Of a stretch of DNA of 57,115 nucleotides, positions 1,064 through 53,395 are shown one piece after another; within the stretch, counting starts at the first letter, position 1, and every line of letters starts with the position of its first letter. Made by a program: the position numbers and the translations under genes. Source of the DNA: Bacteroidales bacterium (lineage in GTDB: Bacteria > Bacteroidota > Bacteroidia > Bacteroidales > WCHB1-69); the NCBI GenBank assembly GCA_017525245.1, contig JAFXTE010000025.1, forward strand, positions 1-57,115, given 5' to 3'. The notes under the pieces are model-generated. The model made no database searches, was not told the DNA's origin, and saw only the letters and a list, made by a program, of their open reading frames with translations.

Positions 1064-1091
1064 CACACGTCACACGTCCAACGTCACACGT
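1064..1091. repeat. Heptad array, CACACGT x4
   Basis: Four consecutive 7-bp units read CACACGT, CACACGT, CCAACGT, CACACGT. The array sits between the divergent promoters of the left-edge gene and trxA, just upstream of the trxA -7 element. It is one of many short-period arrays in this window. Confidence 0.85.
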
Positions 1092-1103
1092 CTAAAAAAA
1101 ATG

Positions 1104-1111
1104 TATCTTTG
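1104..1111 (+). promoter_or_regulatory. Bacteroidota -7 element TATCTTTG for trxA
   Basis: A perfect TAnnTTTG match 30 bp before the trxA ATG. Confidence 0.75.
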
Positions 1112-1140
1112 CGGCTTAATAATTTTAAAATCCAAATACT

Positions 1141-1455
1141 ATGGCATTAGCAATTAACAATGAGAATTTTGAGACCCTGATTAAGGGCGACAAATTGGTT
1201 GTCATCGATTTCTGGGCAACTTGGTGTGGCCCGTGCCGGAGCATCGCCCCCATCGTGGAAGAAGTCGCCGCCGAGTTTGAAGGCAAAGCCGTGGTCGGCA
1301 AGTGCGACACCGACGAGAACGGCGACATCGCCATGCAGTTCGGCATCATGAACATCCCCACCCTCGTCTTCATCAAGAATGGTGAACTTGTTGACCGTCA
1401 CGTCGGCGTGATCAAGAAAGAGGAACTTGTGGCGAAAATCAACCAGCATCTGTAA
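1141..1455 (+). CDS. trxA: Thioredoxin
   Basis: This 104-residue protein is a single thioredoxin domain, the usual length for TrxA. The active site WCGPC is at residues 28-32, preceded by VIDFWAT, and the cis-proline loop is in IPTLVFIKNG near residue 76. It is a cytosolic dithiol-disulfide reductant that is itself reduced by thioredoxin reductase. There is no signal peptide. The gene has its own TATCTTTG promoter and is followed 27 bp later by the peptide transporter, so the two are probably co-transcribed and share the terminator at 3173-3205. Confidence 0.95.
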   Translation: MALAINNENFETLIKGDKLVVIDFWATWCGPCRSIAPIVEEVAAEFEGKAVVGKCDTDENGDIAMQFGIMNIPTLVFIKNGELVDRHVGVIKKEELVAKINQHL

Positions 1456-1482
1456 TCGGACAATTCTTTAAATTTCAATAGT

Positions 1483-3147
1483 ATGAATACAGCTTTATTA
1501 ATTTGCATCATCGGTACGATTGTTATCATACCGTTTTTGATTTACTATGTGCGTGAAGCCAAACTGCATCACCCGAAAGGGTTGATTGCCGCCGCTTTGA
1601 GCAACATGGGTGAGCGTTTCGGCTACTACATCATGAATGCTGTGCTGTTGCTCTTCCTCGTTTCCAAGTTCGGTCTGCCCGATGGCACCGCCGGCGTCAT
1701 CTACTCTGTCTTCTACTTCGGTATCTACGTGCTGAGCTTGGTGGGCGGTATCATCGCCGACAAGACCCAGAACTACAACAAGACCATCCAATGGGGTCTC
1801 ATTATCATGGCCATCGGCTATGTGGTGATGGCTATCCCGTTGTTCAGCAAGACCGCCGAGGGCGCTATCCTCGACAGCGGTGCTGGTTGGTGGACGATTC
1901 TTATCATCACTTGTATGGCTTTGTTGTTCATTGCTTTCGGTAACGGTCTGTTCAAAGGCAACTTGCAGGCTATCGTCGGTAAATTGTACGACGAGTTCGA
2001 AGCTGAGGCTGCCAAGAAGGGTCCCGAGGCTCTCGCTGAAGCCAAGGATCGCCGCGACTCCGGTTTCCAGATTTTCTACGTCTTCATCAACATCGGCGGT
2101 TTCTTCGCCCCGTTCATCGCCCCCTTCCTCCGCGAATGGTGGCTGAAGGCGCATCACCTCATCTATAACGCCGACATGTCCGGTCTGTGCCACCAGTTCC
2201 TCGCTGATGGCCAAGCAAGCCAGAAGTTCACCGAGACGATGGCGACCGTGCTGCAACCCGGTTACAACTTCACGGACACCGCCGCTTTCTGTTCCGACTA
2301 CATCACCGTTTTCAACCAAGGCGTACACTTCTCTTTCATCGCCTCCGTGTTGGCAATGTTGATTTCTTTGGTTATTTTCTTGACCAACAAGTACAAACTG
2401 CCGCAGCCGGCCAAGAAACAGCAGGCTGAGGTGGTGGAATACACTGCCGAGGAGAAACTCGCCATGGCGAAGGAAATCAAACAACGTTTGTATGCCTTGT
2501 TTGCCGTGTTGGGTATCGCTGTCTTCTTCTGGTTCTCTTTCCACCAAAATGGTCAGTCGTTGTCCGTGTTCGCCCGTGACTTCGTGCAAACGGAGAAGAT
2601 TGCCCCTGAAATCTGGCAAGCTTTGAACCCGTTCTTCGTGATTGTGCTCACGCCTATCATCATGGTTATTTTCGCCGCTTTGGCTCGCAGAGGCAAACCC
2701 ATCTCCACACCTCGCAAGATTGCCATCGGTATGGCCATCGCTGGATGTGCTTATCTCTTCCTGATGATTATCTCCATCGTGAACAACTATCCGTCAGGTA
2801 CAGAGTTCCGCGCCATGGATTTGGCACAAATGGCTGCCGCCGGTCTTGCCAAAGCTGCTCCGTGGGTGTTGCTTGTCACCTACTTCTTCCTGACCGTGGC
2901 TGAACTGTTCATCTCCCCGCTGGGTCTGTCGTTCGTCTCCAAGGTGGCTCCTCGCCACATGGTGGGTTTGTGTCAGGGCTTGTGGCTCGGAGCCACCGCT
3001 CTTGGCAACTTGCTGATCTGGCTCGGCCCTGTGATGTACAACGCTTGGCCAATCAAATACTGCTGGGCCGTGTTCGCTGTGGTATGTTTCGTTTCCATGG
3101 CCATCATGCTCGGAATGGTGAAGTGGCTGGAGCGCGTAACGAAATAG
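1483..3147 (+). CDS. POT/PTR-family proton-dependent oligopeptide transporter
   Basis: A 554-residue protein with about a dozen or more hydrophobic segments, of the major facilitator superfamily POT branch. It carries the family signature around SNMGERFGYY (residues 41-50, equivalent to the ExxERFxYY motif involved in proton coupling) and the conserved FYVFINIGGF segment near residue 200. Members import di- and tripeptides with protons across the inner membrane. It lies directly downstream of trxA and is followed by an intrinsic terminator, so it ends the operon. Its exact substrate cannot be read from the sequence. Confidence 0.88.
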   Translation: MNTALLICIIGTIVIIPFLIYYVREAKLHHPKGLIAAALSNMGERFGYYIMNAVLLLFLVSKFGLPDGTAGVIYSVFYFGIYVLSLVGGIIADKTQNYNKTIQWGLIIMAIGYVVMAIPLFSKTAEGAILDSGAGWWTILIITCMALLFIAFGNGLFKGNLQAIVGKLYDEFEAEAAKKGPEALAEAKDRRDSGFQIFYVFINIGGFFAPFIAPFLREWWLKAHHLIYNADMSGLCHQFLADGQASQKFTETMATVLQPGYNFTDTAAFCSDYITVFNQGVHFSFIASVLAMLISLVIFLTNKYKLPQPAKKQQAEVVEYTAEEKLAMAKEIKQRLYALFAVLGIAVFFWFSFHQNGQSLSVFARDFVQTEKIAPEIWQALNPFFVIVLTPIIMVIFAALARRGKPISTPRKIAIGMAIAGCAYLFLMIISIVNNYPSGTEFRAMDLAQMAAAGLAKAAPWVLLVTYFFLTVAELFISPLGLSFVSKVAPRHMVGLCQGLWLGATALGNLLIWLGPVMYNAWPIKYCWAVFAVVCFVSMAIMLGMVKWLERVTK

Positions 3148-3172
3148 TTGAAATTTTACCTTAAATTATAGT

Positions 3173-3205
3173 AAGAGACCTGTCGGAAGATGGGTCTCTT
3201 TTTTT
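3173..3205 (+). terminator. Intrinsic terminator after the peptide transporter
   Basis: The inverted arms AAGAGACC (3173-3180) and GGTCTCTT (3193-3200) enclose a 12-nt loop and run into a T tract. Confidence 0.8.
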
Positions 3206-4183: not shown

Positions 4184-5449
4184 ATGAAAAAAATCATCAC
4201 AATAGCAGCAATACTCGTCCTGGTCGGCAGCTCCTGCCGTCGTGAGGCCGACTACATGCCCTACATCGGCGAGAACGGCAAATTAGCCTACAGCACCTAC
4301 ACCGAACAGTTCGACTACCTCTGGAAAGTCCTCAGTACGGGCTACGTCTTTTGGGACGTGGACACCACGGATTGGGATGCCATGTACGCCCGTCACCTTC
4401 CTGCGTTCCAGGAGCTTGACAAGAAGTACGAGCAGGTTGGCTACGTGAAGACGGAGGAATTGCAGACACTCTATACGGGATTGGTGGGCGGTATGATTGA
4501 TCACCACATGACTTTTCAGGTGAAGAATCTCCATCCTGCTCCTGACGATCAATCCGCCACGGTAAGCATAGATCCATCCGCCATAGAAATCCCCACCCGT
4601 GATTACTATTTTGAATCTTCCGCAAATGAAAAGATTGGTATTCTGACTTTTCTGCAAAATATAGAGTCGCAATATACGGTGGAGACGCATGAATCTTGTG
4701 AAATCTATATATCGGATATTGGAAGGGACATCACATATCATTATATTCTTTTCAAGCTCCCTGACGGGCGGAAGATTCCCTATTTGTGGCAGCCGTTAGC
4801 TGCCATCACGCCAGTGATGCTGCAGGGCGGTGAGGGAGCACAGCTCCTCGACCACTATTTCAAAGCCATTACGGAGACTCCCCGGGAACAACTTGCAGGC
4901 ATCATCCTCGACAACCGCTGCAACCGTGGCGGCTACCAGGACGATTTGGACTTTCTCATCGGCAACTATCTCAACGAAAAGACGGAGATTATGAAGACCC
5001 GCTACAAAGAGGGGCCCGGCCGGTTGGAGCATTCTCCGTGGACTCCCTACTACATTTTCCCGAATACCCGCTATCACCGCGACATCACGGCGGAGAACAT
5101 CCCGTATGTGATTCTTTGCGACATTAACTCGGTAAGCATGGGCGAGATCGAGCCGATGACCATCAAGGCGGTGTTGCCCACGGCGCATACGATTGGCGAG
5201 CGCACGCACGGCGGAACCGGCCCGTTGCAACCCGCCAATTGCATTGACCTCAACTACGGCGGTCCGTTCGGAACCTCGAATCTGTCGGTGGGTCACTACG
5301 TCTATACCTCCACCTTCGAGGCGCAGATCAGCGGCAAAGTCTGGGAGGGCATCGGCCACACCCCCGACGAAATTGTCCTCCGCAAAGACTACAACGGCAA
5401 TTTCAAACCGCAATTGGACGCGGCGTTTCAATATATTATCGGCTATTAG
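4184..5449 (+). CDS. S41-family peptidase-like lipoprotein
   Basis: A 421-residue protein with a lipoprotein signal peptide; the lipobox cysteine is C18 in LVGSSC. The C-terminal half matches the tail-specific protease fold: GIILDNRCNRGGY (an LRxNxGG-like motif) and, near residues 313-321, DINSVSMGE, where the SxxE serine is the likely nucleophile. No clear PDZ domain is seen, as in the simpler secreted S41 members. It would be anchored to a membrane, most likely facing the periplasm or outer surface. The last codons, Tyr and stop, are formed by a heptad repeat. Whether it is an active protease is not certain. Confidence 0.78.
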   Translation: MKKIITIAAILVLVGSSCRREADYMPYIGENGKLAYSTYTEQFDYLWKVLSTGYVFWDVDTTDWDAMYARHLPAFQELDKKYEQVGYVKTEELQTLYTGLVGGMIDHHMTFQVKNLHPAPDDQSATVSIDPSAIEIPTRDYYFESSANEKIGILTFLQNIESQYTVETHESCEIYISDIGRDITYHYILFKLPDGRKIPYLWQPLAAITPVMLQGGEGAQLLDHYFKAITETPREQLAGIILDNRCNRGGYQDDLDFLIGNYLNEKTEIMKTRYKEGPGRLEHSPWTPYYIFPNTRYHRDITAENIPYVILCDINSVSMGEIEPMTIKAVLPTAHTIGERTHGGTGPLQPANCIDLNYGGPFGTSNLSVGHYVYTSTFEAQISGKVWEGIGHTPDEIVLRKDYNGNFKPQLDAAFQYIIGY

Positions 5450-5471
5450 CTATTAGCTTTTGGCTATTAGC
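5444..5471. repeat. Heptad array TATTAGC x4, containing the upstream stop codon
   Basis: The units are TATTAGC, TATTAGC, TTTTGGC, TATTAGC. The first unit supplies the Tyr codon and the TAG stop of the S41 gene. The units are roughly the reverse complement of the array at 5513-5547, so the two could pair in RNA. Confidence 0.85.
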
Positions 5472-5512
5472 TGCCCCCCCTTAATAGGGTAGTCAAAAGT
5501 TTGCTTTTGCAT

Positions 5513-5547
5513 GCCAATAGCAAATAGCCAACAGCCAATAGCCAAAA
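5513..5547. repeat. Heptad array GCCAATA x5
   Basis: Five 7-bp units read GCCAATA, GCAAATA, GCCAACA, GCCAATA, GCCAAAA. The array ends 5 bp before the pepP -7 element. The same unit family recurs at 31830-31885 and 52746-52773. Confidence 0.85.
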
Positions 5548-5552
5548 AATAG

Positions 5553-5560
5553 TATCTTTG
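5553..5560 (+). promoter_or_regulatory. Bacteroidota -7 element TATCTTTG for aminopeptidase P
   Basis: A perfect TAnnTTTG match. It overlaps the most upstream in-frame ATG (5558), which therefore cannot be the start; the next ATG at 5603 is chosen. Confidence 0.75.
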
Positions 5561-5602
5561 CCGTCGCATTTTCGAAATACAGTAATAAAAACGTCAAAGA
5601 AT

Positions 5603-7000
5603 ATGAACCCCTTATTCGAACCCCAAGTTTATCAAAACAGAAGAGAGAAATTGACAGCGGCTGTCAAGAGTGGCATCGCCGTGTTTTTGGGCAACCATGA
5701 AGCCCCGATGAACTATCCCGACAATACCTATAACTTCCGTCAGGACAGCGATTTCCTCTATTTCTTCGGACTTTCCATCGCCGACATCGCGGCCGTCATC
5801 GACTTCGACGCGCACCAGTCGATCATTTTCGGCAATGACTTCACCATCGACGACATCATCTGGATGGGCGACCAACCGACGATTGCTTCTTTGGCCGAAA
5901 AAGTGGGCGTGACGGAGACCCGTCCGTTTGCGCAGCTCGCCGAATTCATCCAGCAGGCGCAGGTGCAAGGTCGCAAGGTGCACTTCACCCCGCAATATCG
6001 TGGTGACAATCAGATCCTGATGGCCAACCTCACTGGCGTGGACGTCAACCACATCCGCGAGGCCGCTTCTTTGGACTTGATCATGGGCATCGTGAACCTT
6101 CGTTCCGCGAAGGAGCAGTGCGAAATCGACGAGATGGACAAAGCCTGCGAGATTGGTGTGAAGATGCACACCGCCGTGATGCGTCGCTGCGTGGAAGGCG
6201 AGTCCGAGCGCGAACTGGCCGGCTTGGCCGAGGGCATCGCCCTGTCGTACGGTAACGGCATCTCCTTCCCCGTGATTCTGTCGCAACATGGCGAAACGCT
6301 GCACAATCATCTGCACAACGGCATCCTGAAGGTCGGCAACATGTTACTGATGGATGCCGGTGCTGAGGGACTGATGAACTACTGCTCCGACTACACGCGC
6401 ACGCTGCCCGTGAACGGCAAATTCACCCAGAAACAGCAGGAAATCTACGAAATCGTGTTGAAGGCCAACCTGGATGCCATCGACGCGGCTCACCCAGGCA
6501 TGTACAATAAAGAGCTGCACCGTCTCTCTTGTGAAGTTATCGCCCAAGGGCTCAAAGACTTGGGTCTGATGAAGGGCGATGTGAAAGAGGCTGTGGAGTT
6601 GGGTGCCCACGCACTTTTCATGGTTCACGGTTTAGGCCACCAGATCGGTCTGGACGTGCACGACATGGAAGGTTTGGGACAGATTTACGTCGGCTACGAC
6701 GACACCGTGCGTCCGAGCAACATCTTCGGATGGGCGTCGTTGCGCATGGCTCGCGAGCTGAAACCGGGCTTCGTGGTCTCCATTGAGCCGGGCATCTACT
6801 TCATCCCGCACCTCATTGACATTTGGAAGAAGGAGAACAAGTTCGCCGACTTCATCAACTACGATGTGGTGGAGAAGTACCGCGACTTCGGTGGCATCCG
6901 CATCGAGGACGATCTGCTGATCACCGAAACTGGCCACCGCGTATTAGGTCCGCATTTGCCGAAGGGCGTGGATGAATTGGCCGCGATTATCGGGAAATAG
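5603..7000 (+). CDS. pepP: Xaa-Pro aminopeptidase (aminopeptidase P, M24B)
   Basis: A 465-residue protein with the two-domain plan of aminopeptidase P: an N-terminal creatinase-like domain (to about residue 170) and a C-terminal pita-bread metallopeptidase domain. The metal ligands expected for M24 are visible: Asp in LLMDAGAE, Asp in CSDYTRTLPV, His in HGLGHQIGLDVHD, Glu in SIEPGIYF and Glu in GIRIEDDLLIT. It removes N-terminal residues preceding proline and is probably cytosolic, as no signal peptide is present. The start at 5603 (MNPLFEPQVY) is preferred because the promoter covers the earlier ATG. Confidence 0.93.
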   Translation: MNPLFEPQVYQNRREKLTAAVKSGIAVFLGNHEAPMNYPDNTYNFRQDSDFLYFFGLSIADIAAVIDFDAHQSIIFGNDFTIDDIIWMGDQPTIASLAEKVGVTETRPFAQLAEFIQQAQVQGRKVHFTPQYRGDNQILMANLTGVDVNHIREAASLDLIMGIVNLRSAKEQCEIDEMDKACEIGVKMHTAVMRRCVEGESERELAGLAEGIALSYGNGISFPVILSQHGETLHNHLHNGILKVGNMLLMDAGAEGLMNYCSDYTRTLPVNGKFTQKQQEIYEIVLKANLDAIDAAHPGMYNKELHRLSCEVIAQGLKDLGLMKGDVKEAVELGAHALFMVHGLGHQIGLDVHDMEGLGQIYVGYDDTVRPSNIFGWASLRMARELKPGFVVSIEPGIYFIPHLIDIWKKENKFADFINYDVVEKYRDFGGIRIEDDLLITETGHRVLGPHLPKGVDELAAIIGK

Positions 7001-27092: not shown

Positions 27093-27130
27093 AAACACAA
27101 ATTGTATCTCTACAGGGAAATGTTTTCAAC

Positions 27131-27158
27131 GTAGAGACGTTTCCTGAAACGTCTCTAC
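27131..27158. repeat. 28-bp palindrome, family A (imperfect centre)
   Basis: The half-site GTAGAGACGTTTC and its reverse complement flank a CT centre. It is the same element as those at 29121, 42268 and 53459, differing only at the centre. Confidence 0.85.
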
Positions 27159-27195
27159 AAGAAATCCCATCTGTTTGAGCTATTCGTAATTTATG

Positions 27196-27203
27196 TATAT
27201 TTG
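27196..27203 (+). promoter_or_regulatory. Bacteroidota -7 element TATATTTG
   Basis: A TAnnTTTG match 83 bp upstream of the heptose kinase gene, so the leader is long. Confidence 0.55.
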
Positions 27204-27286
27204 CGGGTATGATTTTATACTGAAATATTTTCGTATAAATCTGATATATAGTAAAATACAAAAAAATTTAACCGCAATATTACGAT

Positions 27287-28330: not shown

Positions 28331-28372
28331 AGCGATGAGACGATGAAACGATAAGACAATGAAACGATGAGT
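28302..28372. repeat. Octad array CGATGAGA, spanning the hddA stop and hddC start
   Basis: One 7-bp unit (28302-28308) is followed by eight 8-bp units of consensus CGATGARA to 28372. The hddA stop TGA at 28328-28330 and the hddC ATG at 28367 both fall inside it. Most units contain ATGA, a stop/start overlap. Related octads occur at 34581-34614 and 47111-47142. Confidence 0.88.
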
Positions 28373-29068: not shown

Positions 29069-29120
29069 ATTATTTTCGATGTAGTCAAATTAAAATATAC
29101 ACGAACAAACGAAATGGATA

Positions 29121-29148
29121 GTAGAGACGTTTCATGAAACGTCTCTAC
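29121..29148. repeat. 28-bp perfect palindrome, family A
   Basis: The half-site GTAGAGACGTTTCA is followed directly by its exact reverse complement. It lies between hddC and gmhA and covers an in-frame ATG (29134), so the gmhA start is placed at 29173. Confidence 0.9.
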
Positions 29149-29172
29149 ATTTTCCGAAGAAATAAACCAATA

Positions 29173-29748
29173 ATGAATCAAAGAATATCCCAATCCATTG
29201 AACAATCCATCGCCGTGAAGCAGGCGATTTTGGACAATCCCGAATTTCAAAACCGCATCCAACAAGCTGCGGAGATGATTACCACGTCGCTGCGGGGCGG
29301 TGGCAAAATCCACTTCTGCGGCAATGGTGGCAGCGCGGCAGACGCCCAGCACCTCGCCGCCGAACTCTCCGGCCGCTTCTACTTCGACCGTCCGCCGCTC
29401 AACGCCGAAGCCCTCCACTGCAACACCTCCTATCTCACCGCTGTGGGCAACGACTACGGCTACGACCTCATCTTCTCGCGGCTCCTGCGCGGCACCGCCA
29501 AGACTGGCGACGTCATCGTGGGCATCTCCACATCGGGCAACTCCAAGAATATCCTCAATGCTTTCGAAGTGGCCAAAGAGATGGGCGTGAAAATCATCGC
29601 TATGACCGGCGAAACCGGCGGCGCGATGAAGGACTACGCCGACATTCTGCTGAATGCGCCCTCCAAGGATACCCCGCGCATCCAGGAAAGCCACATCATG
29701 CTCGGGCACATCATCTGCGAACTCGTCGAAACCGCAATGTTCTCTTAA
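29173..29748 (+). CDS. gmhA: D-sedoheptulose 7-phosphate isomerase
   Basis: A 191-residue SIS-domain protein of GmhA length. The motifs are FCGNGGSAADAQHLAAELSG (residues 55-75), VIVGISTSGNSKN and the C-terminal QESHIMLGHIICELVE with the conserved Glu and His. It turns sedoheptulose 7-phosphate into D-glycero-D-manno-heptose 7-phosphate, the substrate of HddA. The start at 29173 is chosen because the earlier ATG lies in the palindrome. A heptad array follows 5 bases after the stop. Confidence 0.9.
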   Translation: MNQRISQSIEQSIAVKQAILDNPEFQNRIQQAAEMITTSLRGGGKIHFCGNGGSAADAQHLAAELSGRFYFDRPPLNAEALHCNTSYLTAVGNDYGYDLIFSRLLRGTAKTGDVIVGISTSGNSKNILNAFEVAKEMGVKIIAMTGETGGAMKDYADILLNAPSKDTPRIQESHIMLGHIICELVETAMFS

Positions 29749-29753
29749 AATAG

Positions 29754-29781
29754 ACCTGAAACCTGAAACTTGAAACTTGAA
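29754..29781. repeat. Heptad array ACCTGAA/ACTTGAA x4
   Basis: Two ACCTGAA and two ACTTGAA units fill most of the gap between gmhA (stop 29748) and the next start at 29788. Confidence 0.85.
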
Positions 29782-29787
29782 ACTATC

Positions 29788-30527: not shown

Positions 30528-30590
30528 AGTGAATAGTGAACAGTGAACAGTGAACGGCGAACGGTGAGCAGTGAACGGTGAGCAGTGAAT
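30528..30590. repeat. Heptad array AGTGAAC x9
   Basis: Nine 7-bp units (AGTGAAT, AGTGAAC, AGTGAAC, AGTGAAC, GGCGAAC, GGTGAGC, AGTGAAC, GGTGAGC, AGTGAAT) start 2 bases after the acyltransferase stop. Confidence 0.9.
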
Positions 30591-30597: not shown

Positions 30598-30633
30598 AGT
30601 CTAAGTCTAAGTCATAGTTATAGTCTAAGTCAT
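30598..30633. repeat. Hexad array AGTCTA x6
   Basis: Six 6-bp units (AGTCTA, AGTCTA, AGTCAT, AGTTAT, AGTCTA, AGTCAT) are followed by a partial unit that runs into the ATG at 30639. It is the only period-6 array seen and lies directly next to a heptad array. Confidence 0.8.
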
Positions 30634-30638
30634 AGTCA

Positions 30639-31829: not shown

Positions 31830-31885
31830 GCTAAAAGCCAAAAGCCAAAAGCTAACAGCCAATAGCCAAAAGCTAACAGCTAATA
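31830..31885. repeat. Heptad array GCCAAAA/GCTAACA x8, containing a stop codon
   Basis: Eight 7-bp units fill the array. The last unit, read on the minus strand as TATTAGC, supplies the final Tyr codon and TAG stop of the steroid-reductase-like gene. The unit family is the same as at 5444-5547 and 52746-52773. Confidence 0.88.
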
Positions 31886-32689
31886 GATGAACGGGAACAC
31901 CCGTTTCAGACGCTTTTTCTCCATGATTTCGCCGAACTCTTCTTTGTAGTGCTGGTAGATGGCGTTGGCGCGCGGCACGAGGTTGGCGAAAGTCCAGATG
32001 AAGAACACCAGACCGGAAATGGACCATGTGAGGATTGCAAACCCGAGCCACTCCATCAGCTCGCCAAAATAGTTGGCACTCGTAACGTATTCAAACATAA
32101 AGCCTTCTGGAAGATAGTGTTTCGTGTCCTCATCACTTTTGCGGAGATGGCGGATGATGTAGTCCGAGCGCAGGTTGACGTAGAATCCGAAGAGGAAGAT
32201 GATGACACCGATGATGAATTGCGGCGACCAAAGCCACGCGACATCCGTGTAGGAAAGTCCCAGCACGTGATAATTCTGCTTGTAAGACTCGAAGAAAATC
32301 CAGTAACCCTGCATCATGGCGTTCAGAATGTTGAAGGCGATGCCCATAAACATGACCGCAAGAGGCATTTGGCTCTTCTTTCCTTTCATCAACCATGGGA
32401 AAATGAGTGACCTCTGGAAATAGTGGATTTCAAAAATCAGCAGAAAGACCATCGGGACAATGTCAAAACGGTGCGGGGATGCCAACCAGATAATGATCAT
32501 GGCTAAGAAGATGGGGAATTCCATCAGGAACCATGCTAACTTGTTGTTGATACTTTTACCCCATTTGCTGGTGGTGAACATGCCGTAACCGGCCTTCACA
32601 AAGTAAAGGGAGATGAAAACCACCACGGCGATGCCAATCATCACCCAAAGGTATATATTAAAGGCTGTGGTATAAAACTCAGGACTCAT
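31880..32689 (-). CDS. Steroid 5-alpha-reductase-like (DUF1295) membrane protein
   Basis: A 269-residue integral membrane protein with six or so hydrophobic segments. The segment FEIHYFQRSLIFPWLM and the C-terminal region (SDYIIRHLRKS, then GFMFEYVTSANYFGELMEWLGFA) match the 3-oxo-5-alpha-steroid 4-dehydrogenase C-terminal domain, which binds NADPH in eukaryotic members. In bacteria the substrate is usually unknown; an isoprenoid or lipid reduction is possible. It lies 19 bp after sppA and probably ends the typA-sppA transcript. Its final codons come from the heptad array. Confidence 0.82.
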   Translation of the reverse strand: MSPEFYTTAFNIYLWVMIGIAVVVFISLYFVKAGYGMFTTSKWGKSINNKLAWFLMEFPIFLAMIIIWLASPHRFDIVPMVFLLIFEIHYFQRSLIFPWLMKGKKSQMPLAVMFMGIAFNILNAMMQGYWIFFESYKQNYHVLGLSYTDVAWLWSPQFIIGVIIFLFGFYVNLRSDYIIRHLRKSDEDTKHYLPEGFMFEYVTSANYFGELMEWLGFAILTWSISGLVFFIWTFANLVPRANAIYQHYKEEFGEIMEKKRLKRVFPFIY

Positions 32690-34580: not shown

Positions 34581-34614
34581 TTTCATCGCCTCATCGTATC
34601 ATCGTCTTTCATCG
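34581..34614. repeat. Octad array (minus strand CGATGAxx), containing a stop codon
   Basis: On the plus strand the units are TTTCATCG, CCTCATCG, TATCATCG and a 10-nt TCTTTCATCG. On the minus strand the CGATGA of the last unit ends the methyltransferase gene as Arg-stop, just as in hddA. Confidence 0.8.
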
Positions 34615-35430
34615 TCCCTTCACAAACACCATGTTAATTCCCCAAAAGGCATGGCGGCGCAAAAATGCACTTTTCTTCCATATCTTTTGCTCTTTTTCTA
34701 TATTTTTTTGCAATTTTTTTTCATTAAAGCAGAGGGACGGCAGGAAACGTATGTATTGGAGGCTGTTTTCGTCCATTTGGAAGCCAGCCTTTTCGAAATG
34801 TTTACGCCACAACTTTTCCGGGCGGATGTTCTCATTTCCCATCAGCACCTCCTTTTTCAGGGTGTCGTCATACATGGAAATCACCCGTTTGTTGCCTCGT
34901 TGCGCGAAAAGCATCGCACTTTTGATCCAGCAGCCGCCATTTTCTTCGATCAGAATCAGTTTTCCGTCGGGTTTGAGCACACGGCGGAAAATCGGCAAGG
35001 CTTCATCCAACGGTTCGATGTGGTGAAGTGTGTCTTGCAAGATAATGTAGTCGAAACTGTTTTCCTCCATGTTTTGATCGAAGAGGTTGGCGTATAGGAA
35101 CGTGCAGAGCGAGGTGTCGCCGTATTGACTCCAGAATTGGCGGCGGCGTTCCCACTCCTCGGGGTAATACTCCAGCGTGGTACCGTAAACGGGTTGCCCT
35201 TTCATGGCGAAATAGAAACCCGTGGTACCGTAGCCGCAGCCACAATCCCAGATTTTCGGGTGTTTGTCGAGGTCGATTTGGCGGTCCAAAAACTCCAAAC
35301 GCTGCATAAAGTAGGCCTTGCGGAACTGCTGGCGCGACGGCGAACCGTCGGTCAGCTTGTAGTAAGGATACAGCCCTCTGTTTTGGCGCAGTTCCTCACA
35401 AAGATGTTCGTAAAAGACCTCCCGCTGCAT
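34609..35430 (-). CDS. Class I SAM-dependent methyltransferase
   Basis: A 273-residue protein with a Rossmann-like methyltransferase core. Motif I, IWDCGCGYGTTG, lies at residues 60-71, and the acidic and post-I strands are in VYGTTLEYYPEE and FDYIILQDTLHHIEPLDEALP, followed by LKPDGKLILIEENGG. The substrate is not evident. It starts 14 bp after the typA stop. The last residues are VFVKGR, with the terminal CGA TGA inside an octad array. Confidence 0.85.
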   Translation of the reverse strand: MQREVFYEHLCEELRQNRGLYPYYKLTDGSPSRQQFRKAYFMQRLEFLDRQIDLDKHPKIWDCGCGYGTTGFYFAMKGQPVYGTTLEYYPEEWERRRQFWSQYGDTSLCTFLYANLFDQNMEENSFDYIILQDTLHHIEPLDEALPIFRRVLKPDGKLILIEENGGCWIKSAMLFAQRGNKRVISMYDDTLKKEVLMGNENIRPEKLWRKHFEKAGFQMDENSLQYIRFLPSLCFNEKKLQKNIEKEQKIWKKSAFLRRHAFWGINMVFVKGR

Positions 35431-37291: not shown

Positions 37292-37300
37292 CAATTTTTT

Positions 37301-37349
37301 TGGATTTGGGACGTAGGACTTTGGACTGGGGACTGAGGATATAGGACAA
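37301..37349. repeat. Heptad array AGGACTT-type x7
   Basis: Seven 7-bp units (TGGATTT, GGGACGT, AGGACTT, TGGACTG, GGGACTG, AGGATAT, AGGACAA) lie between the divergent typA and CAP-like promoters. Related to the array at 53347-53395. Confidence 0.85.
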
Positions 37350-37463: not shown

Positions 37464-39926
37464 ATGAATATAAAATCTACTCTGTCAATCTTTTCTATAA
37501 TACTGTTTTCCAGTATTTTAGCGCAAGCACAAACTGAAAACCAATACAGTAGGTTTGACCCTTCCTCCTTGAAGGAAAATGCCAAATATGTGCGGAATTT
37601 TGCGCCGAACAATTATGACGAGAAAATTCTGTATCAGTGTTTCACTGACATGGTTAATCAGGCCCGTGCCGAATTCCGTTATCTTCCAACGCTCAAGCAT
37701 AATGTCAGTTTGGATTCAGCAGCACAATATCAAGCTGACTATCAGGCATCTAAAGACGAAAAGACATTGGAGAACAATGCCCCGTACAAAACCACCTTTT
37801 TCCGCCTGCGCAAGTATGGTTTGGCGGGCAATGGGGAAGAATTGGTGGCCAAAGCGAAAGCTTATTTGGGTGAAACAGAATATTCATATTACGACCTGTC
37901 TCTTGCTTTGGTGCAGTCTCTTCTCAAGAATGTGAAGACTGCTGATGTCATGCTGAACGAGCAGTACACTTATATGGGATTCGGTATGAATACAGATGCT
38001 GCCATGAAGAGCATGTACATTTCCTTGGTTCTCGGCAACGACCGCACCTTCAACCCCTACAAGGCGGCTTTTAACGACAAAGATGTTCCTTACACCAAAG
38101 GTCAGGCCGGTTTGAAGGGCTATGACGAAAAAGTCTGTAAAAAATGTGCCACCGAACCAGGCTTGGAAATGCTTTCCGAATGGGTGTCCGTGAACAAAAA
38201 CGGCGAAATCTACATCAACTGCGACAACCACAAGGAACTGAAACGCCTAATCGGCAAAGAGGGTGATGCCATTGCTATCGACATCATTCAAGAAGGTCAA
38301 TTTGAGTGTGACCACCACCAAGTGGATTACGACTTATACCATCGCGGAACAGTCACTAAGCCCATCACTTTTGAAAAACTGATGGCCGCTAACGAAAACG
38401 CCAACCTCAAATCCGGCAAACTCATCGCGAAAATCGGCACATTGCCTGATAATGTTGACGACAGCAAAAATCTGGAACTCGCCGTGCTGGTTCTGAAAGA
38501 GAGCAACCGTGTGTGTCGTTCTGTCATTGCCAAGAATATTGAGAGCAAGGGAGCCGACTATACCGAGAAAATCAATTTCGTGAAAGACGAAGTAGGCATC
38601 AAGAGCAACGGCGAATGGACGATTTCGCCCGAGGACGGTACCTTCAGCGTTTCATTCCCATACGAGGCAAAAAAGATTGACTACACCGCAGCAGGTTTCA
38701 ACTTAGACAAGAAGGACCCTAACATGCCGCAATATAGGGTTAACAGCGTGGAACTTGTCTCCCATATCTCCCCAGATTATTACCAAGATGCATCATACAA
38801 AACCATTCAGGAGAAGCGTGCGGCCGCTATCAAAAAAGATTTGCAACGCTATTTCCCCGGCATGGATATCAAATTGGTGTATGACTACTGCTGGGATGAA
38901 TTTAAGGAAAAAATCACGCAACACGAAGAGTATTATGACTTGAGCTTCAAAACGTTGGAAGAAGCTGCCAAAGAGTTGCGCATGTATAATCGTTATGCTG
39001 CCAAAATATTGGACACCAGTTATTTGGCTCCGCTTCGTACGATGGAGCTTCGTCAGTCGGTGACCTATTACGCTGATTCCCCGTCCGGCGAAGAGGCTTT
39101 CGCCCTGTGGAAATTCAACAACGCCGTCAAGGATCCGAAAAAACTCGGCTTTGCCATGTCGGTGGAAGACTACATCTTAAAACAAGTAGAAAACGGAAAA
39201 TTCTCCTCTTCTTCATTGGAAAAGATGGAAATTCCATTCAAAAAAGAGTATCAGACGTTGTTGAACAACAAACTGTACGCACAATATTATAAGAGCCCTA
39301 AGCTGACTCCGGCAATGGCCGAGCAGATGACGAAGATTTATAACCTCAATACAACCAATCAGTTGTTGATGTACAACACGACGGTTGCGGATGTTCTTGC
39401 CGCTTCCATTAAAACCACAGCTGATATCGCCAAAACACAAGCCGCTATTGACAAGCTTTACACGATCCCCGCTATCCCGAAAGACCGCGTGAACAGTCTG
39501 AATCTCGAATATCAGTTCAAAGTCATCAATTATTTGGACACGCTTCCCTCCAATGCCGAGACTACCGCTTTGATTAACAGCACGTATGCCAAAATCAAGG
39601 AAATCCGGAACGAAAAATTAGACAGTTGGAAGAACGCATTCAAACTGGCCTCTTATTTCAACAAGCGGCATGATTATATGTATTCCCTGTCGCTGATGAC
39701 CCCATTTCTTGATGACCCGACCATCTCCGAAGACTTCATCTTCTCTTACGTGTCATTAGCCGCACATAGGGAGGAGACTTATTTGAGCGGCCTTTTCACC
39801 AAGGCTTTGCAGTTGGCGGCTGACAAAAATGCTGCACGTCTGTGCGGTCTTGTTGACAAGTTGCCGACCTGCATCATGGAGAACGAGGATGCTAAAAAGA
39901 TCATTTGCAAGACATGCAATAGGTAG
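37464..39926 (+). CDS. Large secreted protein with CAP/SCP-like N-terminal region
   Basis: An 820-residue exported protein; the signal peptide ends near residue 23 (ILAQAQ). Residues about 50-190 resemble a CAP domain: CFTDMVNQARAEF, then LDSAAQYQADY, and MLNEQYTYMGFGMNTDAA near the end of the domain. The remainder has a cysteine pair VCKKC, a KIICKTC pair at the extreme C terminus and long helical stretches. No sorting domain is seen. It is transcribed from its own promoter, with rluD 41 bp downstream. Function unknown; the CAP match is partial. Confidence 0.7.
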   Translation: MNIKSTLSIFSIILFSSILAQAQTENQYSRFDPSSLKENAKYVRNFAPNNYDEKILYQCFTDMVNQARAEFRYLPTLKHNVSLDSAAQYQADYQASKDEKTLENNAPYKTTFFRLRKYGLAGNGEELVAKAKAYLGETEYSYYDLSLALVQSLLKNVKTADVMLNEQYTYMGFGMNTDAAMKSMYISLVLGNDRTFNPYKAAFNDKDVPYTKGQAGLKGYDEKVCKKCATEPGLEMLSEWVSVNKNGEIYINCDNHKELKRLIGKEGDAIAIDIIQEGQFECDHHQVDYDLYHRGTVTKPITFEKLMAANENANLKSGKLIAKIGTLPDNVDDSKNLELAVLVLKESNRVCRSVIAKNIESKGADYTEKINFVKDEVGIKSNGEWTISPEDGTFSVSFPYEAKKIDYTAAGFNLDKKDPNMPQYRVNSVELVSHISPDYYQDASYKTIQEKRAAAIKKDLQRYFPGMDIKLVYDYCWDEFKEKITQHEEYYDLSFKTLEEAAKELRMYNRYAAKILDTSYLAPLRTMELRQSVTYYADSPSGEEAFALWKFNNAVKDPKKLGFAMSVEDYILKQVENGKFSSSSLEKMEIPFKKEYQTLLNNKLYAQYYKSPKLTPAMAEQMTKIYNLNTTNQLLMYNTTVADVLAASIKTTADIAKTQAAIDKLYTIPAIPKDRVNSLNLEYQFKVINYLDTLPSNAETTALINSTYAKIKEIRNEKLDSWKNAFKLASYFNKRHDYMYSLSLMTPFLDDPTISEDFIFSYVSLAAHREETYLSGLFTKALQLAADKNAARLCGLVDKLPTCIMENEDAKKIICKTCNR

Positions 39927-39927
39927 G

Positions 39928-39962
39928 GCTCAAAGTTCAAGGTTCAAGGTTCAAAGTTCAAG
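39928..39962. repeat. Heptad array GTTCAAG x5
   Basis: The units GCTCAAA, GTTCAAG, GTTCAAG, GTTCAAA, GTTCAAG begin one base after the stop of the CAP-like gene and end 4 bases before the rluD ATG. Confidence 0.88.
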
Positions 39963-39966
39963 GATT

Positions 39967-40995
39967 ATGGTGGATACTGGAAAGAATCCAGGGGAGAAAG
40001 ACGAATTATACGAACATTATCGATTCGAGGTCACGGCGGGGACGGAAATGCTCCGCATTGACAAGTATCTTTTTAATCTGATTGCCAACACGTCTCGCAA
40101 CAAAGTGCAACAGGCGGCGAAGGCGGATTGTATTCTGGTGAACGGCAAACCCGTGAAGCAAAATTACAAGGTGCGTCCTGGAGACACGATTTCCGTTTTG
40201 ATGCCCAACCCACCCAATGACACCGAAATTTTGCCAGAAAACATTCCGCTGAATATCGTCTATGAAGACAATGACTTGCTGATTGTCAACAAAGAGGCGG
40301 GAATGGTGGTGCATCCGGCATACGGAAACTATACGGGCACTTTAGTAAATGCGCTCTACTACTACCTGCGCGACCAGAAATTGGAAGACGGCTCCCCGAT
40401 GAAGCCGCTTTTGGTGCATCGCATCGACAAGAACACTTCGGGATTGCTTGCGGTGACCAAGAATGAGCTGGCGCAGATGCGCTTGGCCAAGACTTTCTTC
40501 GACCACGATCTGGAACGCAAGTATTGGGCTTTGGTGTGGGGCGACATGGAGGAGGACTCCGGAACCATAGTAGGCAATGTGGGGCGCAATCCCAAAGACC
40601 GTATGGTGATGACGGTGTTCCCCGAAGGCAGCGACCAAGGCAAACACGCGGTCACCCACTGGCGCGTGGTGGAACGATTCGGTTACGTGACGCTGATTGA
40701 GTGTCAGTTGGAAACGGGACGCACACACCAGATCCGCGTCCACATGCAATATATCGGTCACCCGCTTTTCAACGATGAAGCCTACGGCGGCAACCGTATC
40801 CTGAAAGGCACCACGTTTACAAAATACCAACAGTTTATCCGTAACTGCTTCAACCTTATGCCGCGTCAGGCGTTGCATGCCAAATCGTTGGGCTTCAAAC
40901 ACCCTATCACCGGCAAAAACATTCTCTTTGAATCGGAACTGCCGGAAGATTTCAGCGCTGTGGTGGAAAAATGGCGGGGATATAAGAATAGTTAG
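39967..40995 (+). CDS. RluA-family 23S rRNA pseudouridine synthase (RluD-like)
   Basis: A 342-residue protein with an N-terminal S4 domain (LRIDKYLFNLIANTSRNKVQ, residues 27-46) and a pseudouridine synthase domain. The catalytic aspartate is in LVHRIDKNTSGLL. RluD acts on the helix 69 loop of 23S rRNA; RluC is the alternative. The start at 39967 is chosen because the frame upstream lies inside the preceding gene and the heptad array. The stop is inside a heptad array shared with the convergent aroK. Confidence 0.9.
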   Translation: MVDTGKNPGEKDELYEHYRFEVTAGTEMLRIDKYLFNLIANTSRNKVQQAAKADCILVNGKPVKQNYKVRPGDTISVLMPNPPNDTEILPENIPLNIVYEDNDLLIVNKEAGMVVHPAYGNYTGTLVNALYYYLRDQKLEDGSPMKPLLVHRIDKNTSGLLAVTKNELAQMRLAKTFFDHDLERKYWALVWGDMEEDSGTIVGNVGRNPKDRMVMTVFPEGSDQGKHAVTHWRVVERFGYVTLIECQLETGRTHQIRVHMQYIGHPLFNDEAYGGNRILKGTTFTKYQQFIRNCFNLMPRQALHAKSLGFKHPITGKNILFESELPEDFSAVVEKWRGYKNS

Positions 40996-41024
40996 CAGTT
41001 AGCAGTTAGTAGTTAGTAGTTGAG
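40990..41024. repeat. Heptad array AGTTAGC x5, shared by two convergent genes
   Basis: The units AGTTAGC, AGTTAGC, AGTTAGT, AGTTAGT, AGTTGAG contain the rluD-like stop (40993-40995) and, on the other strand, the aroK stop and codons for its last five to six residues (LTTNC). Confidence 0.9.
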
Positions 41025-47027: not shown

Positions 47028-47055
47028 GGTGAATTGTGATTAGTGATTGGTGATT
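47028..47055. repeat. Heptad array GGTGATT-type x4
   Basis: The units GGTGAAT, TGTGATT, AGTGATT, GGTGATT lie immediately upstream of pheS, ending 5 bp before its ATG on the other strand. Confidence 0.75.
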
Positions 47056-47110: not shown

Positions 47111-47142
47111 TTCATCGTTTCATAGTCCTTATCGTATCATCG
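47111..47142. repeat. Octad array (minus strand CGATGA type), encodes the cyclophilin C terminus
   Basis: On the plus strand: TTCATCGT, TTCATAGT, CCTTATCG, TATCATCG. On the minus strand the sequence gives the last codons, Met-Ile-Arg and TAA, of the cyclophilin gene. Third member of the CGATGA octad family. Confidence 0.75.
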
Positions 47143-47863
47143 TCGCGCTGATGATCTTGATGTCCTCCAACGGGCGGTCGGCACCGTCTTTCTGCTGTGC
47201 AGCGATTTTATCGACCACTTCCATGCCTTTGATGACTTCACCGAACACGGTGTAGTCGCCGTCAAGGAAGGGGGCGCCACCAACGGTGGTGTAAGCCTGT
47301 ATCTGCTCGGGCGTAAAGGTCTTGCCCGTGCGCTGGGAAATCATGTTGAGTTTGTCATTGTCATACACCGTTCCATCCACGATGTAGAACTGGCAGCCTG
47401 AGGAGGCTTTCTGCGGGTTCACATTGTCACCCATGCGGGCAGCGCAAACGGCACCGCGCTTATGGAAATGCGCCGGCACAAACTCGGCGGGGATGGTGTA
47501 GCCCACATCGCCGGAACCGAGCCGCTGACCGGCTTTCGCCGATTTAGAGTCGGGGTCGCCACCTTGGATCATGAACCCTTTGATGATGCGGTGGAAAAGC
47601 ACGCCGTCATAGAATTTGTCGTTCACCAACTTGTGGAAGTTGTCTCTGTGTGCCGGTGTGTCGTTGTACAAGGCGATAGTGATGTCGCCCAAAGTGGTTT
47701 TCAATAAAACTTTCGTCATTTCTTGCGTATTGTTGGTTTTGGTTGTCTTTTCCGTGGCACCAGTGGTCGCGGATGCTTCTTCCGTTTTCACTTTCTTGGG
47801 TGATGAACATGATGCCAAAACAATGGTAATCAATGCTATACAAAAAATAGTTGCCTTTTTCAT
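47129..47863 (-). CDS. Peptidyl-prolyl cis-trans isomerase (cyclophilin) lipoprotein
   Basis: A 244-residue protein with a lipoprotein signal, C19 in IVLASCSS, a Ser/Thr-rich linker (to about residue 50) and a cyclophilin domain. The catalytic core is visible in FHRIIKGFMIQGGDP, and SSGCQFYIV follows. It should be membrane-anchored and help fold exported proteins. A TATCTTTG promoter is at 47894-47901. The C-terminal residues are encoded by an octad array. Confidence 0.92.
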   Translation of the reverse strand: MKKATIFCIALITIVLASCSSPKKVKTEEASATTGATEKTTKTNNTQEMTKVLLKTTLGDITIALYNDTPAHRDNFHKLVNDKFYDGVLFHRIIKGFMIQGGDPDSKSAKAGQRLGSGDVGYTIPAEFVPAHFHKRGAVCAARMGDNVNPQKASSGCQFYIVDGTVYDNDKLNMISQRTGKTFTPEQIQAYTTVGGAPFLDGDYTVFGEVIKGMEVVDKIAAQQKDGADRPLEDIKIISATMIR

Positions 47864-50948: not shown

Positions 50949-50956
50949 CAAAAATA
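50949..50956 (-). promoter_or_regulatory. Bacteroidota -7 element TATTTTTG for the DUF4143 ATPase
   Basis: The minus strand reads TATTTTTG 25 bp before the ATG at 50924. The nearest 33-bp repeat unit covers its upstream region. Confidence 0.7.
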
Positions 50957-50960
50957 CACT

Positions 50961-51037
50961 TTTTCCAACGAAAAAACACTCTGTCGTTACATTTTTTCCA
51001 ACGAATAATTACTGTTGCATCGCACTTTTTCCAACGA
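50961..51037 (-). repeat. Three promoter-proximal repeats at exactly 33-bp spacing
   Basis: The 11-mer TCGTTGGAAAA (minus strand) occurs at 50961-50971, 50994-51004 and 51027-51037, each followed by AA(G/A)TG. Only the copy nearest the gene leads into a good -7 element. The spacing is about three helical turns. It looks like an array of binding sites or duplicated promoter halves. Confidence 0.85.
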
Positions 51038-52140: not shown

Positions 52141-52142
52141 TT

Positions 52143-52745
52143 ATGGAAAACAATGAAATAAACAACAGCGAATTGGAAACCATGCGTGCGCAAATCGCAC
52201 TGCTGAAGGACAAATTAGACAAGGAGACCATCGTTTCCGACAAGCTTCTTCGCAACACGATGCAGCATAAGGCCAAATCCATCAACACCACCGCATGGAT
52301 CGGCATCACCGCCTCTATTTTCGTGATTTTCAGCGCACTGACCACTCTCCGAAGTTTGGGTTTCAGCTGGTGGTTCATTGCCGCCACCATCTTGATGATG
52401 CTCGTGTGCGATTTCTTCACCTGGAAGTACCATAAGGATGTGAATGCCAAGACAATGAGCGGCGATCTGGTAACCGTTGCCAAAGTGATGAAACAGCTAC
52501 GTGACAACTACCAAAAATGGCTGAAATATGGTATTGCAATGAGTATCGTATGGCTTGTCTGGCTCTCTATCGAATACTATATTCAATTGAAAGACTGGAA
52601 GTTAACAATTACCATTATCATTGCTACACTAATTGGTGGTGGAATAGGCGGCTTCATCGGATGGAAGATGCACAAATCGGTGATCCGCAACGCCGAAGAG
52701 ATTATCAGTCAGATTGAGGAGAACGAAGAAAATGACGAGGAATAG
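52143..52745 (+). CDS. Four-TM membrane protein, possible anti-sigma partner
   Basis: About 200 residues. An N-terminal acidic coiled-coil stretch (about 8-35) is followed by four hydrophobic segments near residues 50-69, 74-92, 128-146 and 155-173, and an acidic C-terminal tail ending EENEENDEE. No known anti-sigma motif (HxxxCxxC) is visible. The gene is tightly coupled to the ECF sigma gene, so an inhibitory or sensing role is the natural guess. An ATG at 52134 overlaps the sigma stop and is an alternative start. Confidence 0.75.
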   Translation: MENNEINNSELETMRAQIALLKDKLDKETIVSDKLLRNTMQHKAKSINTTAWIGITASIFVIFSALTTLRSLGFSWWFIAATILMMLVCDFFTWKYHKDVNAKTMSGDLVTVAKVMKQLRDNYQKWLKYGIAMSIVWLVWLSIEYYIQLKDWKLTITIIIATLIGGGIGGFIGWKMHKSVIRNAEEIISQIEENEENDEE

Positions 52746-52773
52746 GCCAAAAGCTAATAGCTAATAGCCAAAG
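52746..52773. repeat. Heptad array GCTAATA/GCCAAAA x4
   Basis: The units GCCAAAA, GCTAATA, GCTAATA, GCCAAAG start at the base right after the stop of the membrane-protein gene. Confidence 0.88.
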
Positions 52774-52808
52774 GCCATTTTACATGAACATTGTATCAGA
52801 ATAAAATG

Positions 52809-52816
52809 TACTTTTG
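52809..52816 (+). promoter_or_regulatory. Bacteroidota -7 element TACTTTTG
   Basis: A TAnnTTTG match 34 bp before the DUF937 gene. Confidence 0.7.
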
Positions 52817-52849
52817 CCCTCGTATAATTAAAACTTAAAATTAATCATT

Positions 52850-53347
52850 ATGGATCTAAACAGTATCATTTCCTCGCTCACGGGCAACAACCTCATCGGA
52901 GAGATTGCCAAAAAGTTCAACATTGACCCTAACAAAATCATCGAAGTAATCAAGGCGGCCATACCCAAATTCTTAGGTTCCATGCAGCAGAATGCCGGTA
53001 CAGCTGCCGGTGCAGCCGCATTGACCCAAGCTCTCGGCAACCACGCTGGACAGGGTATGGGCATTAACATCGAAGACGGCATGAAGATTCTGCAGAAAGT
53101 CTTCGGCGGCAATCTGGGTTCCGTGGTCTCCAACTTGAGCGGTCAAACCAACACCACCAACGATCAGGTTTCCAACATCTTGGCCTCCATCGCCCCGAAC
53201 CTCCTTTCCGTTTTGGGCAAAGGTGCCGGCACGGGCAACATCGGCAACATCCTCGGAGGTCTGCTGGGCGGCGCAAGCAACTCCAGCAGCAGCTCCAATG
53301 CCGGCAAGGTCCTCGGCGGATTGCTAGGGAAGATGTTCAAGAAATAA
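52850..53347 (+). CDS. DUF937-like protein
   Basis: A 165-residue protein rich in Gly, Ala, Ser and Asn. The N-terminal part has helices (IISSLTGNNLIGEIAKKF, IIEVIKAAIPKFLGSM), and the C-terminal half is a low-complexity GG(A)LLGGASNSSSSSN region with a final KVLGGLLGKMFKK. This is the plan of the DUF937/YidB-like family, whose function is not known. No signal peptide is present. It has its own promoter and an intrinsic terminator after a heptad array that begins on its last stop base. Confidence 0.78.
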   Translation: MDLNSIISSLTGNNLIGEIAKKFNIDPNKIIEVIKAAIPKFLGSMQQNAGTAAGAAALTQALGNHAGQGMGINIEDGMKILQKVFGGNLGSVVSNLSGQTNTTNDQVSNILASIAPNLLSVLGKGAGTGNIGNILGGLLGGASNSSSSSNAGKVLGGLLGKMFKK

Positions 53348-53395
53348 GACTTGAGACTTAGGACTTAAGATTTAGGACTTAAGACTTAGGACTTT
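53347..53395. repeat. Heptad array AGACTTA/GGACTTA x7
   Basis: Seven 7-bp units (AGACTTG, AGACTTA, GGACTTA, AGATTTA, GGACTTA, AGACTTA, GGACTTT) start on the last base of the DUF937 stop codon. Confidence 0.9.

Follow-up and report, generated by a model that had tools for sequence, protein, structure and literature searches.

Tandem arrays of short units line many gene ends in a stretch of 57,115 nucleotides from a Bacteroidales bacterium (assembly GCA_017525245.1, JAFXTE010000025.1, positions 1 to 57,115; hereafter the window), which is part of contig C6 in a genome of 3.68 Mb and 111 contigs. We consider it probable, at roughly two chances in three, that these arrays represent arms, most of them orphaned, from the ends of a small cassette that resembles the intervening sequences (IVSs) of 23S rRNA. 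When complete, the proposed cassette would consist of a tandem 6-8-mer arm, a gene for a 23S rRNA intervening-sequence protein (IVP; PF05635, a four-helix bundle) and the same arm inverted, placed between genes and often directly against stop codons. The arrays and their proximity to stop codons had been pointed out in a preliminary description of the window, to which the polarity of the arrays and the inverted arms around IVP genes are additions.

Catalogues of bacterial seven-base tandem repeats go back decades, but to our knowledge no origin of them is generally accepted. The arms of IVS-type stems are offered here as such a source and may explain these repeats in very different bacteria; an rRNA oddity, a gene known mainly from rRNA inserts, would thereby become an abundant gene-boundary element of a phylum. 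The cassette interpretation predicts the strand, the position and the partner of each array, would explain drifting gene ends, as the arms overlap stop codons and shift them, and would give the common annotation 'four helix bundle protein' a genomic context.

IVP genes between inverted tandem arms

Two array pairs of opposite sign were found to enclose decayed genes for four-helix-bundle proteins, which prompted a search of the whole genome with PF05635. The search returned 12 rows at 11 places, nine of which are flanked by inverted arrays of one unit that is specific to each place (GGCAATA, GACGTGA, GCTATTA, GGTTATT, AGTTAAG, GAATGTA, AGTTAGY, AATTGAC and AATTGAT). The inverted flanking repeat around each IVP gene was expressed as an arm score, read at cut-offs of >=15 and >=13; eight of the nine armed places reach 15 and the ninth (L129) scores 14, and the two places lacking arms hold a divergent (L137) and a weak match (L139). 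At L128 the match to PF05635 has an E value of 1e-41, with 2gsc as the nearest solved chain and 2rld as another solved relative.

IVP genes are present in at least 51 of the 60 genomes searched (own genome included), with all 35 congeners among them. The arm survey covered 101 evaluable genes from 45 genomes (11 own, 90 others), drawn from the matches listed without taking every match and with the duplicate row L138 dropped. Inverted arms score >=15 at 86 of these 101 genes and >=13 at 92, the latter comprising 76 of 81 in congeners including the own genome and 16 of 20 in other genera of the order. Among the 86, the best arm period is 7 in 62, 8 in 14 and 6 in 4 cases, and of the left arms 80 are G-rich, 5 C-rich and one neutral. 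Arms were found at none of 56 other genes of 110-180 aa in the own-genome sample, the sole high score among 57 belonging to an IVP, and in only 1 of 87 shifted windows. When arms were paired across different cassettes, 5.2% of 1515 pairings matched, and the two arms of one cassette match in direct orientation in 8/101. The predicted duplex energy of the arms has a median of -39 kcal/mol within a cassette versus -8.7 across cassettes. Cassettes are 413-968 bp long (median 520 bp). They lie within 5 nt of a stop codon in 30/51 cases on the left and 8/26 on the right, compared with 11/57 and 6/31 for start codons, and 48 of 79 have both neighbours oriented like the IVP gene. An insert that spares its neighbours would be expected right at the end of a reading frame, which fits cassettes that hug stop codons.

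The arm unit tends to follow the IVP lineage. In a comparison of the 92 cassettes scoring >=13, pairs at different places, i.e. without detectable similarity in their flanks, have matching arms in 0.4% of 834 pairs when the IVPs are <35% identical, 0.8% of 1326 at 35-45%, 3.1% of 721 at 45-60% and 19.3% of 88 at 60-75%. At >=75% identity, 6 of 8 such pairs match, these eight not being independent of each other, as members are shared and four involve L248, whose different place was confirmed. For pairs at the same place, arms match in 98% of 51 pairs (IVP identity >=75%), 16.7% of 42 (60-75%) and 18.5% of 65 (45-60%). Arm unit and IVP lineage thus tend to go together, also to new places, and the cassette behaves, as judged from these comparisons, as a putatively mobile unit.

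Individual sites are filled in some congeners and empty in others. In one spacer compared over five congener loci, the IVPs are 45-63% identical in most, several carry different units on both arms, and one locus pair is 89% identical over 3.3 kb. The site of L248 is filled in G008 and measures 75-193 nt in the 17 other readable loci (20 fetched); by eye, the genes practically abut in four of the unfilled loci, three hold GC-rich hairpins without tandem units, and others hold arrays of other units. The site of window array 39930 was compared over 30 congener loci, with a full IVP cassette in two (L207 and L208, in G011 and G016), abutting genes in five, arm-only hairpins in several (e.g. L201, L203, L204, L211 and L215) and other units in others. 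L202 and L222 at this site look like cassettes whose middle has perhaps been lost: the L222 alignment reaches the 3' part of the IVP frame and covers ~130 nt of it, and L202 retains one 18-nt match.

Stop-codon coupling, polarity and probable orphan arms

The genome-scale sample comprised the window and 40 further stretches of the own genome (668,621 bp, 532 called genes, 395 spacers >=15 bp). Seven of the 40 stretches had been picked for GCCAATAGCCAATA (the GCCAATA pattern), so array density in this sample is inflated and not unbiased; gene calls rest on a home-made hexamer caller, which places starts only approximately. Tandem Repeats Finder (TRF) was applied at a score of >=30 to the window and >=40 genome-wide. 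Spacer autocorrelation peaks at lags 7, 14, 21 and 28, peaks that are absent in shuffled spacers, and coding DNA gives period 3 only. In 340 spacers >=40 bp we counted 144 arrays, 93 of them of period 7, 14, 21 or 28, against 1-9 arrays in total and 0-3 of these periods in each of 10 dinucleotide shuffles, so that heptanucleotide units occur in these spacers well above chance.

The preliminary description had singled out the coupling to stop codons and had named a lack of genome-wide enrichment as its refutation. The coupling withstands this check: of 129 arrays with periods of 6-8 or multiples thereof, 67 are at most 5 nt away from a stop, where 200 random placements inside the same spacers give 22.8 (sd 2.8, max 29). 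Start codons show no such coupling (17/133 arrays within 5 nt, 20.0 expected, sd 2.7). In three groups of the genome's named relatives, which are Bacteroidales metagenome-assembled genomes, mostly ruminant-derived, the counts near stops are 16/21 (6.7 expected), 4/6 (0.9) and 43/70 (25.6). Assembly artefacts, which had been raised as a concern, are an unlikely source, as arms of this kind are also present in circular plasmids with complete records and in genomes that consist of a single contig (L301, L318). For the window itself, the claim that at least eleven arrays lie within about five bases of a stop was slightly generous: nine of 16 overlap a stop or lie within 5 nt, and 11 of 16 is reached only at <=8 nt. 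Stop triplets in arrays are commoner on the sense strand (546 vs 375). A 'fail-safe stop' function was considered as a general reason for the arrays and dropped, because units such as GGTTATT hold no stop triplet. In more distant Bacteroidales (L045-L107), many period-11 arrays occur in spacers (46/188 at score >=40), suggesting that other lineages may favour other unit lengths.

Arrays are also polar. In the own genome, G-C skew of the arrays drops from left to right across the spacer (Spearman -0.47, n=142, p=4e-9), in all four gene-orientation classes and most weakly between divergent genes (n=17, p=0.05); non-array spacer DNA of the own genome shows no skew flip. Among 44 neighbouring array pairs within one spacer, 23 are opposite in sign, and 22 of these 23 are G-rich on the left and C-rich on the right. 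Owing to this polarity, the arrays act like the two arms of an inverted repeat.

Their sequences point the same way. A similarity of >=20 to some cassette arm is reached by 94 of 133 orphan arrays, compared with 29/133 in the reversed control, and the orientation of matched orphans follows the polarity rule (37:11 in the left half of the spacer, 53:14 in the right half). Array 39930 is identical over 37 nt, including flank, to the arm beside an IVP in L271 of congener G011, an unlinked locus in another species. Since most window arrays resemble cassette arms, we read them as orphan arms of IVS-like cassettes, and most arm-only spacers would be remnants or gene-less derivatives ('solo arms' and short hairpins).

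Origin of the arrays and relation to known systems

By analogy with classical 23S IVSs, the arms may form a stem in the transcript from which RNase III would cut the cassette out, leaving the flanking cistrons intact; at a stop codon, a spacer insert would then leave both cistrons unharmed. Copy number might drift by slippage, and the arms may stay alike by one templating the other. The IVS of Coxiella burnetii has been described as a selfish element of 428 nt with a 28-bp stem cut by RNase III (PMC4990558). Like the cassettes, 23S rRNA IVSs are described there with an S23/IVP reading frame (PF05635), a similar size (428 nt vs the median of 520 bp), terminal inverted repeats forming a stem and a sporadic distribution. 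In contrast to them, the cassettes lie between protein genes and not in rRNA, and their stem is built of tandem 6-8-mers with a lineage-specific unit. We call them IVS-like and not 23S IVSs, because Rfam detects no rRNA in the 11 own IVP loci or in nine plasmid loci. Insertion into rRNA was found outside the own genome only, in Azospirillum lipoferum L333, where the IVP gene sits inside a large-subunit rRNA gene (RF02541) and the stem is built of heptamers; classical IVSs and intergenic cassettes can therefore share one build.

The combination is widespread. Of 148 genomes sampled from the phylum, the own one included, 96 carry PF05635. Arms of >=15 were found at 13 of 29 loci checked across the phylum, 12 of the 13 with a G-rich left arm. 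Among plasmids, 31 records have an IVP match; 15 were taken and 10 of them have arms of >=15 (8 of 13 for cyanobacterial ones), with units such as GGGAACA in Nostoc, GGGAAAA in Geminocystis, GGGTGTA in Calothrix and GGTGACA in Anabaena, and others. At Pseudanabaena L322, the downstream arm and the array adjoining the IVP start share one orientation, with the inverted copies at a greater distance from the gene. In CRISPR-cas clusters of cyanobacterial plasmids (L322, L324, L325), two cassettes lie between cas6 and cas4 and one, scoring 14.5, between cas10 and cmr3.

The likeness to cyanobacterial heptanucleotide repeats drawn in the preliminary description is apt, on a comparison of type and not letter by letter with the published units of short tandemly repeated repetitive (STRR) sequences. 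A close published parallel is formed by the GGGAATC and GGGGAYT arrays of Xanthomonas and Nostoc, which according to the main text of PMC4692102 (2015) are seven-base and intergenic, lie closer to the 5' neighbour in either orientation and, when downstream, are on the coding strand 0-50 bp from stops or overlapping them; inverted pairs are given for Xanthomonas (70 and 75 cases). Unlike the arrays described here, they comprise one unit per genome and were interpreted as G-quadruplex elements. The same main text reports generally no association with mobile elements and does not mention S23, a helix bundle or xcc0516. The TAACTGA repeats of Beggiatoaceae, Cyanobacteria and some Bacteroidetes, for which translational regulation was suggested (MacGregor 2015, PMC4679880), are likewise seven-base tandem repeats in spacers, with some overlap of gene ends and a patchy spread over some of the same phyla; they are described as a single unit lying mostly just upstream of starts in the Beggiatoaceae genome, in contrast to the many units at stops seen here. 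The present arrays fall outside that family, since their units differ and they show no start coupling (17/133 vs 20.0). Avd of diversity-generating retroelements is a homologous four-helix bundle (PMC10053308), and L128 matches bAvd PF22296 at 1.3e-4, albeit below its cut-off (22.9 vs 40 bits). At 413-968 bp, the cassettes cannot also hold a reverse transcriptase. The genome has a single RVT_1 match, on C52, a contig without a listed IVP match, in an analysis in which template and variable repeats were not searched for. A literature search limited to open-licence papers returned no report linking IVP genes to tandem-repeat arms.

Several observations weigh against reading the arrays as cassette arms. 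Orphans far outnumber cassettes in the own-genome sample (133 arrays vs 4 cassettes), no IVP remnant (E<=1e-3) was found in the orphan spacers of that sample besides the four known cassettes, and inverted matches at >=14 number only 9 among 95 adjacent array pairs (chance level 2.6%), three of the nine being IVP cassettes. Of the surveyed IVPs, 15/101 score <15, and outside the order only the 13 of 29 loci mentioned above reach that score. At a looser cut of >=15 the reversed control is high (75/133 vs 115/133), and in the named relatives the polarity keeps its sign but is weak (rho -0.28, p=0.22; -0.67, p=0.10; -0.23, p=0.04). Of the features that mark a MITE or classical transposon, inverted arms are present, and target-site duplication is not visible by eye at the compared sites (window site 39930 and the L248 site). 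The part-deleted states L202 and L222, at one site, are no more than suggestive of decay. Among the arm mismatches, changes compatible with G.U pairing in the IVP-sense transcript are not in excess (101 vs 92, p=0.56), which lends no support to selection on an RNA stem. Within the window, array 1063 has no matching cassette arm (best similarity 9.5; no exact match >=14 nt), and the polarity of array 52752 is opposite to the rule. Finally, the Nostoc repeats are described in the main text of PMC4692102 as paired in only a few cases and in none on the plasmids.

The strongest rival, which we nevertheless regard as unlikely, reverses the order of events: arrays would come first, either as 3' hairpins or as spacer DNA grown by slippage, with IVP genes inserting preferentially into the loops of array hairpins, as IVSs do in rRNA helices. 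It accommodates the excess of arrays over IVP genes, the Azospirillum IVP in its rRNA gene and the fact that spacers after the same gene hold unrelated hairpins in different congeners, including GTAGAGACG-type palindromes without tandem units. The tendency of an arm unit to accompany its IVP lineage to different places argues against it, as do the matched arms at 86/101 IVPs when few orphan neighbours match. If, on the other hand, the arrays were regulatory or termination elements kept by selection (binding sites, bidirectional Rho-type insulators or mRNA 3' hairpins) and IVP merely their user, the stop coupling, the presence by eye of some hairpin after the same stop in many congeners and the G-rich heptamers that PMC4692102 places on the coding strand just past stops in Xanthomonas and Nostoc would be accounted for; the change of unit among congeners, spacers that can be empty and the lack of excess wobble-preserving changes make this very improbable. 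We give least credence to plain replication slippage at gene ends, with stop codons as the mere edge of constrained sequence and no element involved. Copy number does differ between close relatives, and 7 nt is the favoured unit in many genomes, for which polymerase slippage has been proposed (cited in PMC4679880); the polarity of 22 vs 1, the lexicon shared with IVP arms, the inverted pairing around IVP genes and the 37 nt that array 39930 has in common with a cassette arm of another species, at an unlinked locus, speak against it. Slippage, which the preliminary description had named as a possible source, hence fits as a mechanism of copy-number change at a site and is contradicted by polarity and the IVP association as a full account. 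The other two origins proposed there, mRNA 3' ends and binding sites, are compatible with the present data.

Going beyond the orphaned-arm interpretation, one might extend it to the heptanucleotide repeats of Bacteroidota, heterocystous cyanobacteria, xanthomonads and others, which would all be intact or orphaned arms of one IVP-cassette superfamily moving via an RNA intermediate, with the G-strand-outward polarity as the trace of repeated, telomerase-like copying of a short template at both ends. We hold this to be a speculative and rather doubtful proposal. The telomerase-like or retroelement origin, to which the polarity had led us, was rejected as a working account, as nothing ties the one RVT_1 match of the genome to the cassettes, and is kept only as this bold reading.

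Individual arrays of the window

The 6-8 bp arrays listed in the preliminary description do exist: TRF recovers 15 of 16, with starts at most 8 nt from the positions given there, and the remaining one, 47111, consists of degenerate 8-mers that are visible by eye and fall below the threshold. Arrays 5442, 28300, 30528, 31830, 34583, 39930, 40990, 47111 (end set by eye) and 53345 overlap a stop or lie within 5 nt of one, 29757 and 52752 join them at <=8 nt, and 1063, 5513, 30598, 37299 and 47036 have no stop nearby. Scanned against Rfam, the window gave only two tRNAs and no family over the arrays.

The hairpin behind the S41 peptidase gene (4184-5449) illustrates an arm pair without an IVP gene. 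Its left arm of GCTATTA units (5442-5472, plus strand) contains the stop TAG of that gene and is identical over 25 nt to arms of IVP cassettes in L130 (own genome) and L233; its inverted partner of GCCAATA units (5513-5545, minus strand) follows after a gap of 40 at a pair score of 15, and the RNA fold is -36.6 kcal/mol (z -3.64). The spacer orthologous to window 5449-5603 was readable in 13 of 30 loci, window included, and holds heptamer hairpins, other palindromes, single arrays or inserts. In L178, L180 and L182 this spacer carries a small open reading frame (MREQCYRCEYQ... or MTEQCYRCEYR..., by eye) beside GAACTTT or GCCAATA arrays, possibly a second type of cargo of such sites.

The 8-mer array GACGATGA at 28300-28371 (plus strand) spans the end of the GHMP kinase gene, reaches into the following start and moves the stop codon. 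Its copy number varies among close relatives. Several congeners lack this array, and their gene ends at ACGATGTAA; compared with these, in which tblastn matches end at residue 340-342 of 347, the array adds a few codons to the frame. Arms can thus alter protein C-termini.

Further plus-strand arrays follow downstream. The TGAAACT array at 29757-29784, 8 nt past the stop of gene 29134-29748, has a 25 nt exact match to cassette L284, and congeners carry other units at the orthologous site. An AGTGAAC array at 30528-30589 begins 2 nt past a stop, differs in copy number among relatives and has an arm similarity of 27 to L164; the adjoining 6-mer array AGTCTA/AGTCAT (30598-30638) shares 20 exact nt with L151, whose cassette arms are likewise 6-mers. 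The TTTGGAC/GGGGACT array at 37299-37339, of left-arm type and 39 nt from a start codon, has an arm similarity of 22.5 to L251. The TTCAAGG array at 39930-39963 begins 3 nt past the stop of the CAP-domain gene, and an RNA fold of window 39920-39970 is no better than shuffles. It is followed by the AGTTAGC array at 40990-41021, which contains the stop of the pseudouridine synthase gene (39967-40995); its 33 nt exact match in L270 falls outside the arms of the cassette there, in a separate array ~770 nt past the IVP. A GTGATTA array (47036-47055) has a 22 nt exact match to cassette L241, and a GACTTAA/GACTTAG array (53345-53394) begins at the stop codon TAA with an arm similarity of 23.5 to L251.

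On the minus strand, the heptamer array TCACACG (1063-1092), C-rich on the plus strand, lies in a divergent spacer. The right-arm-type array of GCCAAAA units at 31830-31886 overlaps the stop of minus-strand gene 31880-32689, with an arm similarity of 34 to L230 and a 26 nt exact match to L257/L263. The 8-mer array TCATCGTA (34583-34605) lies 3 nt from the stop of minus-strand gene 34609-35430, the degenerate 8-mer array at 47111-47142 overlaps the stop of minus-strand gene 47129-47863, and the AGCTAAT array at 52752-52768 lies 6 nt past a stop.

Repeats of other kinds were observed as well. A 33-bp tandem repeat of 2.5 copies at 50956-51037, containing CACTTTTTCCAACGA, is unrelated to the heptamers. 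Palindromes of the form GTAGAGACG...CGTCTCTAC, G-rich on the left, recur in spacers (window 27093-27286 and 29069-29133; also L173, L177 and L184) and resemble REP-type hairpins. Congener spacers likewise hold GTAGGGGCGA...CGCCCCTAC palindromes, and palindromes of these types occupy places where other congeners have heptamer hairpins.

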